Part shown: piece after piece, positions 1,692 to 4,882 of the stretch
How the letters are laid out: every line of letters starts with the position of its first letter
Numbering within the stretch: position 1 is the first letter of the stretch
Virus record (IMG/VR): IMGVR_UViG_3300004180_000003
Coordinates: 1 to 34,767 of that record
DNA: 34,767 nt
Reading direction: 5' to 3' (one strand)
DNA from: a virus
Position numbers and translations under genes: made by a program
Notes under the pieces: model-generated
Seen by the model: only the letters and a program-made list of their open reading frames with translations
Database searches by the model: none
What the model was told of the DNA's origin: nothing

Positions 1692-4061
1692 ATGGAACAG
1701 AGTGAGATTATCAACAAGGCACTGTATGCCGATGCTGAGGAAATATCGCTGGCAATTGGGAAAAGCGTTAGGACTATTATTCGTATGGCGGACCATGATA
1801 AATGGGTGTTTTTACCAGAAAAAACCCGTAGTCGGCATCCTAAGAAGTGGTTTTTGATTAGTAAGTTGCCCATCGATATTGCTGCGAAAGTCATCCCATA
1901 CAAAGATCAACTTAGAAAGGAGTTACACAATGAGCAAAAAAGTAAAGATGTCGGTCATGCCGACAGTGCGGAAATTTCCGAACAAGCTAACTATGCACAA
2001 GATAACAGATCAGCAGATGGACGAGATTCTAGCAATGGAGCATCAGTTAACCGTCTACCAGCTGTCGTTCATGGCTCAGGCAAAGGGAAAACCAGGCGCA
2101 ATGATGCCAATGTGGCATCACCCAACTACTCAGAATTGGGCGGAAAATTACGAGCTGGAGTTTCATCAGGTGCCGGAGATGATGACGGAAACCCTATTAA
2201 TAGACCTATTGCAAGTTCGCAGACTGGCAACGCTGGGCCTGATCATAAAAGTCAGCTTACAGGGAAATCCTTGGTGGCAATTGACAGCGCGCGGCCATCT
2301 GGTGGTGACCTTGTACATGGGATACATGCAGGATTACCAGCAGGACATCGAAAATCTATAAAAACCACCGACAAACAACGCGAAATAGACGGCGCAAGGC
2401 AATACATTCTTAACTTTATTAAGCATTCAGGAAGTAAGGATGATGAAGCGGTTATTTTTATCAATCAGGGCTATAGCGCTGGCACTTTACATGCTGACTT
2501 GGTCCATGCCTATGAACATTGCAATGCTAAAGCCGCCAAGAAGGTTAAGCCATTAACTAAGCGTTCCGTAGTGCGTTGGCGCCAGTTAAAGACAAGAGAT
2601 ACCTCGTGTTTGCCGAAGAAAACCAGAGTGAAAGCCGATTGGCGGCAAGTGTGGTGGTTTCAGCTGTTTTTAAGTTGTTATCGCAAGCCGCAAAAGCCAA
2701 ATGTAACCGAAGCCTATAGGGACTTTAAAGAACTGTGGTGCGCACAAGGTTTAGTGATAGATGATTTACCCAAGTATGACGCGGTAAATCGACTGCTTAA
2801 CAAGATGCCACATATTGAGCGGGAAAAATATCGCCGTACTGGTGCAGAAATGGCAGCAATGATGTCATGCAAGCGGCGTAACTGGAATGATATGGCCAGC
2901 AATACCGTCTGGGTAGGAGATGGCCATACATTCAAGGCTAAGGTAATTAACCCTAAAAATGGTCGCGCCTTTGCCCCGGAAGTGACGGTGATTATTGATG
3001 CACGCAGTCGGTTTATTGTGGGGTGGGCATTTAGTTTATCGGAAAACGTTATTGCTGTATCAGAGGCACTTGGCAATGCCATGTTGAAGTATGGCAAACC
3101 CATTTTTTATTACTCTGACAATGGCTCTGGGCAAACCGCCAAGCAGTTGGATTGTAAGGTGGGCGGCTTGTTAGGGCGGATGGATATTAGCCATGAAACC
3201 GGCATACCAGGTAATCCACAAGGTCGCGGATTGATTGAAGGGCTTTGGGATATTACGGCAATTGCAGCGGCAAAGACCTTCCCAACCTTTCAAGGTACCG
3301 GCATGGATAGGGATACCTTACGTATTGTAACTAACAAGATTAACAGCGCTAAACGCAAAGGTGAAGTGCCGGATTTTGTCCCAGACTGGCATCGGTTTAT
3401 GGCGACTTGCGAGGAGTATTTTGACACTTATAACCATGAGCATAAGCACAGCAGTTTAGGCGGTAAAACGCCAGCGGAAGTGTACTTTGCCAACCTTAAT
3501 GATGAATGGAACCGGCCTTTAACAGAGAACGAGAAGATTAATCTGTATCGCCCATCTGAAATAAGAACGCCGCACCGAGGGGAAATAGACTGGATCAACA
3601 ACAAATATTTTCACAAAGACCTAGCTTATCTGCCAGCTAAGACCAAGGTGATGATGTCATACGATATGCACCATGCGGATTTTGTCTGGGTAAGCCACTT
3701 GAACGGGGAGTTTATTTGCAAGGCGGAATGGAATGGCAACATGGTAGATGGCTTTCCAAAAACCTTAGTTGATCAAAAAATATCTCAGCGTATTGATGGC
3801 ATTGTTAAACGTAAACAGGACGGTATGGATGCCGCCAATGCTGAACGCGGCCATGAAATCGAAGGCGAAGTATTGCAACGCATTCCGACGATACCAAAGG
3901 AAGTTATTGAGCCGTTGCAGTTTGTACCGGTGCCAGCCAAGACGGTTGAAGAGCCGCCGAAGCCGGTAGTGTTTACCAACTTTAGCAAGCAAGAACCCGA
4001 AGAGAAGACCGGTAGCTATATGGATACCGTGATGGCTCTTTACAAAAATAAGGGCCAATAA
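1692..4061 (+). CDS. A: MuA-like DDE transposase with enlarged linker
   Basis: This 789-residue protein performs strand transfer for integration and replicative transposition. Residues 1-75 form a MuA N-terminal winged-helix type domain; about 225-300 are the end-binding domains; the catalytic core carries D410 (GDGH), D476 (YSDNG) and E516 (GLIEG); the C-terminal part, about 570-789, should contact the B protein. MuA is 663 residues, and the extra length lies mainly in residues 80-223, rich in Ser, Gly, Asn and Asp with no Trp, Phe, Cys or Met. That stretch is exactly where another gene (1930-2361) is nested in the +1 frame. AAGGGAT precedes the ATG. Confidence 0.93.
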   Translation: MEQSEIINKALYADAEEISLAIGKSVRTIIRMADHDKWVFLPEKTRSRHPKKWFLISKLPIDIAAKVIPYKDQLRKELHNEQKSKDVGHADSAEISEQANYAQDNRSADGRDSSNGASVNRLPAVVHGSGKGKTRRNDANVASPNYSELGGKLRAGVSSGAGDDDGNPINRPIASSQTGNAGPDHKSQLTGKSLVAIDSARPSGGDLVHGIHAGLPAGHRKSIKTTDKQREIDGARQYILNFIKHSGSKDDEAVIFINQGYSAGTLHADLVHAYEHCNAKAAKKVKPLTKRSVVRWRQLKTRDTSCLPKKTRVKADWRQVWWFQLFLSCYRKPQKPNVTEAYRDFKELWCAQGLVIDDLPKYDAVNRLLNKMPHIEREKYRRTGAEMAAMMSCKRRNWNDMASNTVWVGDGHTFKAKVINPKNGRAFAPEVTVIIDARSRFIVGWAFSLSENVIAVSEALGNAMLKYGKPIFYYSDNGSGQTAKQLDCKVGGLLGRMDISHETGIPGNPQGRGLIEGLWDITAIAAAKTFPTFQGTGMDRDTLRIVTNKINSAKRKGEVPDFVPDWHRFMATCEEYFDTYNHEHKHSSLGGKTPAEVYFANLNDEWNRPLTENEKINLYRPSEIRTPHRGEIDWINNKYFHKDLAYLPAKTKVMMSYDMHHADFVWVSHLNGEFICKAEWNGNMVDGFPKTLVDQKISQRIDGIVKRKQDGMDAANAERGHEIEGEVLQRIPTIPKEVIEPLQFVPVPAKTVEEPPKPVVFTNFSKQEPEEKTGSYMDTVMALYKNKGQ
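1930..2361 (+). CDS. Nested overlapping gene inside transposase; putative winged-helix protein
   Basis: This 143-codon ORF lies wholly inside the transposase gene, in the +1 frame, covering transposase codons 80-223. Its ATG follows a strong ribosome binding site (AGAAAGGAG, about 1914-1922) by 7 bases. The product looks like a globular protein: four Trp, many Met and Tyr and regular hydrophobic spacing. Residues 86-130 (LLQVRRLATLGLII, then WWQLTARGH) resemble the last helix and wing of a MarR/PadR-like winged-helix domain. The transposase frame over the same bases is low-complexity, suggesting this frame is the older, constrained one. No homologue is recognised. A DNA-binding or transposition-modulating role is inference. 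Confidence 0.68.
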   Translation: MSKKVKMSVMPTVRKFPNKLTMHKITDQQMDEILAMEHQLTVYQLSFMAQAKGKPGAMMPMWHHPTTQNWAENYELEFHQVPEMMTETLLIDLLQVRRLATLGLIIKVSLQGNPWWQLTARGHLVVTLYMGYMQDYQQDIENL

Positions 4062-4132: not shown

Positions 4133-4882
4133 ATGAAAAGCCATTTTGTAAAAACCAGTAATTACCAAGTATTTATGGTCATGCTTGATGCGGTTGAAAG
4201 TCGAGCGCCTAAAGAGGGCCGCATTATCAACGTTAACGGCGAGCCAGGCAGCGGTAAAAGCCGCACCATGGACCATGTGGGCGCGGATCGTAATGCCATT
4301 TACATCAACGGCATGCCGGGTATGACAGTGGGTTATTTGCGGGATTTGCTGGCGTATGAGTTGGGCTGCCCGGGTGGTACTCGGTTGCAGCAGCAACAGG
4401 CGATAAACCGCGCGTTTAGTGAGCGGGTGCCGATGGTGATTTTTGACGAGGCCCAACATGGCCTACATAAAAAAGCCGAATGCATTGAGTTTTTGCGCTG
4501 CACCTGTGAGCAAGTCGGCAGTGTATTGGTGTTAGTGTGTCACACCTCGGAAAAGCACCGGTTTGGTGAACATAAGCTGGCCCATATCAGTACCCGGATC
4601 AGCGCGGTGGTTGAGTTTAAGCCCGCCAATACTGCCGATGCCATGCTGTATTTGCATGAGCTGTGCGAGGTGAAGATCGACATTGGCATTGCTCAGCTGG
4701 CAGCCGCCCAATCAAAGGGGCGCTATCGCTTGCTGGCCAATGCCTGCCGTACCTTGGAAGATTTCGCCCAGTCATCGGGTAAAACAGAGTTAACCATTAA
4801 TGATGTCAAAGGCATGATGCTCTGTGAAGACGCGATGAAAGCGTTACGCAATAAGGGCTTAAGCCAAAAGGCGGGTAACTAA
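4133..4882 (+). CDS. B: MuB-like AAA+ ATPase, target-capture protein
   Basis: A 249-residue ATPase with Walker A NGEPGSGKSR at 35-44 and Walker B PMVIFDEAQ at 100-108, plus a sensor strand VLVLVCHTSEKHR near 131-143. This is the AAA_22 type typical of transposition ATPases. In Mu, B coats target DNA, stimulates A and gives target immunity. It is shorter than MuB (312 aa), mainly because it lacks the N-terminal HTH extension; shorter forms are common in B3/D3112-like phages. It follows the transposase after a possible attenuator, has AAGGAT upstream of the ATG, and its TAA overlaps the next start by one base. Confidence 0.9.
   Translation: MKSHFVKTSNYQVFMVMLDAVESRAPKEGRIINVNGEPGSGKSRTMDHVGADRNAIYINGMPGMTVGYLRDLLAYELGCPGGTRLQQQQAINRAFSERVPMVIFDEAQHGLHKKAECIEFLRCTCEQVGSVLVLVCHTSEKHRFGEHKLAHISTRISAVVEFKPANTADAMLYLHELCEVKIDIGIAQLAAAQSKGRYRLLANACRTLEDFAQSSGKTELTINDVKGMMLCEDAMKALRNKGLSQKAGN

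Follow-up and report, generated by a model that had tools for sequence, protein, structure and literature searches.

In phage lambda, the o-spanin gene Rz1 lies out of frame within the i-spanin gene Rz, and its product is a lipoprotein that acts in lysis together with its partner. Here we describe a 143-codon open reading frame (ORF) embedded out of frame in the transposase gene of a Mu-like phage, in the virus record IMGVR_UViG_3300004180_000003 (34,767 bases; this whole stretch is called the window below), which sequence comparisons indicate is almost certainly a real gene. As in lambda, a double-stranded DNA phage carries a complete embedded gene that has its own start; unlike in lambda, the host gene encodes a transposase, the overlap coincides with an interdomain linker and the predicted product is winged-helix-like. 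Gene E of phiX174, which lies within gene D, is likewise an internal overlap in which both frames are used (PMC8227390), but it yields a lysis peptide and belongs to a compact single-stranded DNA genome, whereas the present locus belongs to a 35-kb Mu-like phage and would encode a putative regulator. The overlapping genes olg1/olg2 of the transposable Pseudomonas phage Fc02 resemble our case in being on the same strand of a Mu-like phage, but they are found upstream of the repressor gene rather than in the transposase and encode another type of product (PMC9936078).

The closest described relatives of the outer gene are the MuA family of transposases. MuA has 663 aa; insertions are very well tolerated in its linker (aa 65-89), whose length and composition vary among homologues (PMC3362531). 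The window transposase shares with this family the domain order, the DDE integrase core, the gene order with Ner and B, and a variable linker between domains Ialpha and Ibeta, but differs in that this linker exceeds that of sister transposases by about 100 residues and appears to be double-coding. In the open-licence literature we found no earlier description of a conserved gene lying within the linker of a transposase. From larger phages, few conserved complete out-of-frame nested genes under measurable selection are on record, and such genes are normally dropped by gene callers.

The ORF at 1930-2361 runs from ATG to TAA entirely within the transposase ORF, in the +1 frame relative to it, and a Shine-Dalgarno (SD) motif precedes its start. 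The features of the locus are the following:

1930-2361, + strand: nested +1-frame gene, 143 aa, encoding a probable winged-helix protein of a new family (nine distinct homologous loci; purifying selection; AlphaFold2)
1914-1922, + strand: SD motif of the nested gene, AGAAAGGAG, 7 nt from the nested ATG
1692-4061, + strand: Mu-type DDE transposase gene A, 789 aa, which holds the nested gene (phrog_310, E 3.8e-118; rve and Mu-transpos_C matches)
1692-1928, + strand: transposase domain Ialpha, of the enhancer-binding type (aligned to the N-terminal region of sister transposases)
1929-2360, + strand: transposase codons 80-223, a hydrophilic and probably disordered linker between Ialpha and Ibeta, on the same bases as the nested gene
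2370-3927, + strand: transposase core from the end-binding domain onward, starting with DKQREIDGARQ (colinear with relatives that have no nested gene)

A preliminary description, made from the sequence alone, had reported the 143-codon ORF with a strong ribosome binding site, a transposase some 126 residues longer than MuA, and an overlapping stretch of transposase devoid of Trp, Phe, Cys and Met. The coordinates, the SD motif and its spacing were all confirmed, the length difference is right (789 versus 663 aa; PMC3362531), and codons 80-223 indeed contain no W, F, C or M and only 2 Y, being rich in G, S, A, D and N.

Scanned against genomes, the window transposase retrieved a single relative, a contig of a Rhodocyclaceae metagenome-assembled genome (L002; 55% identity). 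In the corresponding position this contig has a +1-frame ORF, and the encoded protein shares 33% identity with the window nested protein along its length. Among the sampled genomes there was no other match; a weak one, L028, was rejected as the antisense frame of an unrelated gene. Scans of viral contigs for close relatives using single proteins or two-row alignments gave no matches, and further viral contigs were gathered by means of DNA patterns built from conserved transposase motifs. The final pattern yielded no new clade members, only another piece of the L024 contig, and the viral-contig collection therefore seems to contain no further members. The transposase tree grouped 15 sequences in one clade (support 100/100), apparently a small and undescribed branch of Mu-like phages. 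The nested gene was present, always in the same +1 register, in 10 of these 15 members (window, L002, L013, L016, L019, L020, L022/L026, L024 and L068), which represent nine distinct loci since L022 and L026 are near-identical. Of these, L016 is a prophage that seems to stem from an isolate assembly. The remaining five (L014, L015, L017, L023 and L025) have a short linker of about 45 aa, with neither an SD motif nor a long +1 ORF there, and the nested gene was absent from all outgroups examined outside the clade. The most divergent member, L020, matched a profile built without it at E 0.015; a comparison of L020 with the set A3, in which it is itself included, was set aside as circular. A single origin was not rejected (approximately unbiased test, p 0.41). 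The inner frame is thus conserved as a protein across diverged relatives, as befits a nested overlapping gene pair.

Start signal and position are equally regular across the nine loci. AGGAG, GGAGG or AAGGA was found at SD distance from the nested ATG in 9/9, compared with 1/289 other out-of-frame ATGs of the same transposase genes. The nested ATG coincides with the end of domain Ialpha in all of them and the stop codon with the onset of the end-binding part (DKQREIDGARQ in the window, elsewhere for example QRLKDGARQ), so that the nested gene, with products of 117-157 residues, occupies the whole interdomain linker. Around the inner start, nothing notable was found in the way of RNA families or RNA structure. 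Because the +1 frame is closed directly upstream of the ATG in L002, L020 and L022, a nested protein joined to Ialpha by frameshifting was ruled out.

Both reading frames depart from chance. When synonymous codons were redrawn for the window transposase protein, the +1 frame stayed open across the span in 0/2000 trials. When codons were instead redrawn for the nested protein, the transposase frame was open in 0/2000 trials in the window, a result obtained in seven of the nine loci, and the chance of openness was 0.003 in L022 and 0.075 in L068. One frame therefore lies inside the other for longer than chance allows. Pairwise substitutions follow the codon positions of the nested gene inside the overlap and those of the transposase in the flanks. 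Specifically, the window and L016 nested proteins differ at 38 amino acids against 58.9+-3.7 expected if the same substitutions were placed at random without creating stops, whereas the transposase frame over the overlap has 65 differences against 55.9+-3.7 expected. Three other pairs agreed with this division between frames. These comparisons point to strong purifying selection on the nested protein inside the overlap, while the residue sequence of the linker is without detectable conservation. Its hydrophobic residues are nonetheless depleted beyond the level imposed by the nested protein in seven of nine loci (p 0.016 or less). The outer frame is, in most loci, both open and hydrophilic beyond chance without detectably conserved residues, and the simplest reading is that over the overlap the transposase needs an open, hydrophilic tether and nothing more. 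Both frames thus appear to be in use, since the openness of the transposase frame and its scarcity of hydrophobic residues greatly exceed what chance would give. We have very little doubt that the locus is genuinely double-coding, and consider it highly probable that double coding and a read-through linker hold together.

The preliminary description had placed a real gene in the Ialpha-Ibeta linker with the transposase frame running through it, and the nine homologous loci, the SD motif and the selection on the nested frame support this. It had also proposed a frame-by-frame comparison of selection, in which purifying selection proved detectable on the nested protein and not on the linker residues of the transposase, and had named as damaging to its case any homologous transposase with a long linker whose +1 frame was closed or lacked an SD motif. 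There were 0 such transposases in the 15-member clade.

The nested protein had no convincing family match in Pfam, PHROG or PDB sequences, and the weak PHROG matches (best E about 0.007) were not accepted. No relative of it is encoded in the phage records, a search of the viral contigs with the pattern WQLTARG, its best-conserved motif and located near the wing, returned nested copies only, and about 650 kb of fetched loci contained no standalone homologue. Neither the Ialpha domain nor the regulator gene after B showed profile similarity to it, leaving an origin from either unsupported. It represents a new protein family. The window protein (predicted local distance difference test, pLDDT, 62) and the L022 protein (pLDDT 73; some blocks reach 85-89) were modelled with AlphaFold2, and in both models helices lead into a two-stranded wing, after which comes a long C-terminal helix. 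Their top structural matches were of the MarR, MepR, HxlR and TubR type (VIA Z 8-10; Foldseek E > 0.001). The protein is thus likely, with moderate confidence, to be a winged helix of the MarR/HxlR type, and the winged-helix pattern guessed in the preliminary description fits both models. The likeness to MarR/HxlR-type regulators extends to the predicted helices, the wing and the long C-terminal helix (Z 8-10), but no match at sequence level accompanies it, neither in Pfam nor in PDB sequences. On the basis of these models, DNA binding is a plausible property.

The history of the locus is marked by mosaicism. The core of the window transposase is sister to that of L002 (69% identity, 100/99 support), whereas the window and L016 share 71% identity in the nested protein; a tree built from the nested proteins alone was unresolved. 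At the nucleotide level, identity between the window and L016 is about 75% in the overlap, falling to 41-75% for the core. Between the window and L002 it is 40-53% in the overlap and 59-83% across most of the core. Gene A of the window is thus L016-like at 1700-2415, that is, in Ialpha and the nested segment, and L002-like from about 2560, with the identity switch located shortly past the overlap. This pattern indicates that recombination has moved the nested segment from one transposase gene to another. We also propose, as a rather doubtful extension, that Ialpha and the nested segment are exchanged as one cassette, with the linker harbouring a captured regulator fitted to the DNA specificity of its companion Ialpha.

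Free-standing genes of the Ialpha type, similar to the transposase N-terminus, were observed directly upstream of A in L024 (2838-3296, + strand) and L068 (2062-2358, + strand). They are possibly competitors for the enhancer or operator, and they show that in this clade Ialpha can be encoded by a gene of its own. Speculatively, a separate Ialpha gene could have opened the way to a fusion that spans a gene lying in between.

Regarding the relative age of the two frames, the short linkers in and outside the clade, together with the tie between linker length and gene presence, favour insertion into the linker over de novo birth. The nested gene was probably captured into an originally short linker, with the transposase linker as the newer reading. 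The preliminary description had suggested such an ancestral captured gene; the pattern of presence and absence favours a nested gene older than the linker, but codon usage gave no verdict. The usual direction of overprinting would be the reverse, with a linker that first grew long and hydrophilic and a new protein that later arose de novo in the +1 frame. De novo viral frames are indeed mostly +1 relative to the older frame, especially in internal overlaps (PMC8227390), as the nested gene is to the transposase, and no free-standing homologue turned up in phage records, viral contigs or fetched loci. On the other hand, 0 clade members have the long linker without the nested gene, it is the nested protein and not the linker residues that is conserved, and the linker is the disordered product of the pair, which in such overlaps is usually the newer (PMC8227390). 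A winged-helix fold would also be less expected of a de novo protein. We therefore regard this order of events as unlikely. Some observations weigh against our own reading of a captured winged-helix gene in a double-coding linker: no free-standing homologue to prove capture turned up, L068 and L020 give weak support in some single tests (chance openness and hydrophobicity), and the fold derives from shallow alignments (pLDDT 62 and 73) with Foldseek E values never below 0.001.

Chance does produce long out-of-frame ORFs in those relatives of this transposase that are rich in G+C, and the +1 ORF could in principle be such a by-product of linker composition; given an open frame in 0/2000 trials in the window and a homologous product, SD motif, codon-position pattern and selection in nine distinct loci, the probability of this is close to negligible. 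A transposase made in two parts, with Ialpha as a separate product, the core made from an internal start and the join a chance open frame, would accord with the free-standing Ialpha-type genes upstream of A in L024 and L068. It is nevertheless very improbable, as the frame is almost never open by chance, its composition is constrained, and there is no conserved internal start with an SD motif near the end-binding domain from which the core could restart after the overlap. The function of the product is a separate question, and the role in transposition or immunity suggested in the preliminary description is conjectural. That it is a DNA-binding early regulator modulating early transcription or transposition has, on the predicted fold, an even chance of being correct. 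It might instead be an accessory early protein directed against the host or competing phages (exclusion, anti-defence or host takeover) and sited for first expression. Mu-like early operons carry accessory genes, a short overlapping gene of Fc02 gives superinfection exclusion (PMC9936078), and the nested gene behaves as a fast-evolving presence/absence module, but the predicted fold resembles that of DNA-binding regulators, and an accessory role, although possible and the main alternative, is not the one we would favour.

The surroundings of the locus follow the gene order of Mu (repressor, Ner, A, B). With a DDE integrase core, a Mu-transpos_C match and Ner and B neighbours, the outer gene belongs to the MuA family; its rve match fell just below the Pfam cut-off. 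The neighbouring genes of the window are the following:

495-1067, - strand: repressor gene (phrog_8/phrog_4)
1333-1671, + strand: Ner-like early repressor gene (phrog_769, E 7e-24)
4133-4882, + strand: transposition protein B (phrog_296, E 5e-25)

The repressors of the window and L002 are almost identical in their C-terminal part and have unrelated N-terminal DNA-binding parts, which is expected if immunity specificity has been swapped. Many clade members (L014, L015, L016, L017, L020, L023 and L068), but not the window, have between ner and A a gene of some 150 aa that bears the motif LTVDLF/LTLDLF/FTLELF. In L023, a sister phage without the nested gene, a gene at 2138-2986 (reverse-complement coordinates) lies between the ner region and A.

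We propose that the early mRNA of this Mu-like phage carries gene A and that its linker stretch would encode a second protein in the +1 frame. Ribosomes initiating at the start of A would read the stretch as a disordered linker between the enhancer-binding Ialpha and the end-binding Ibeta, and those initiating at the inner AGGAG-ATG would make a small separate protein, a probable winged helix. The captured gene would have sat in a register where the other frame could stay stop-free, and the small protein would be made in step with the transposase.

The clade may serve as a natural experiment, since some relatives have the nested gene and others do not, the partner frame is disordered, and the enzyme family is well studied and has an insertion-tolerant linker. 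Flexible interdomain linkers are suggested as places where phages store extra genes, and the part of the new family in the early regulation of Mu-like phages is directly testable. If the cassette reading were true, a recombinase and its regulator would be made from the same bases.
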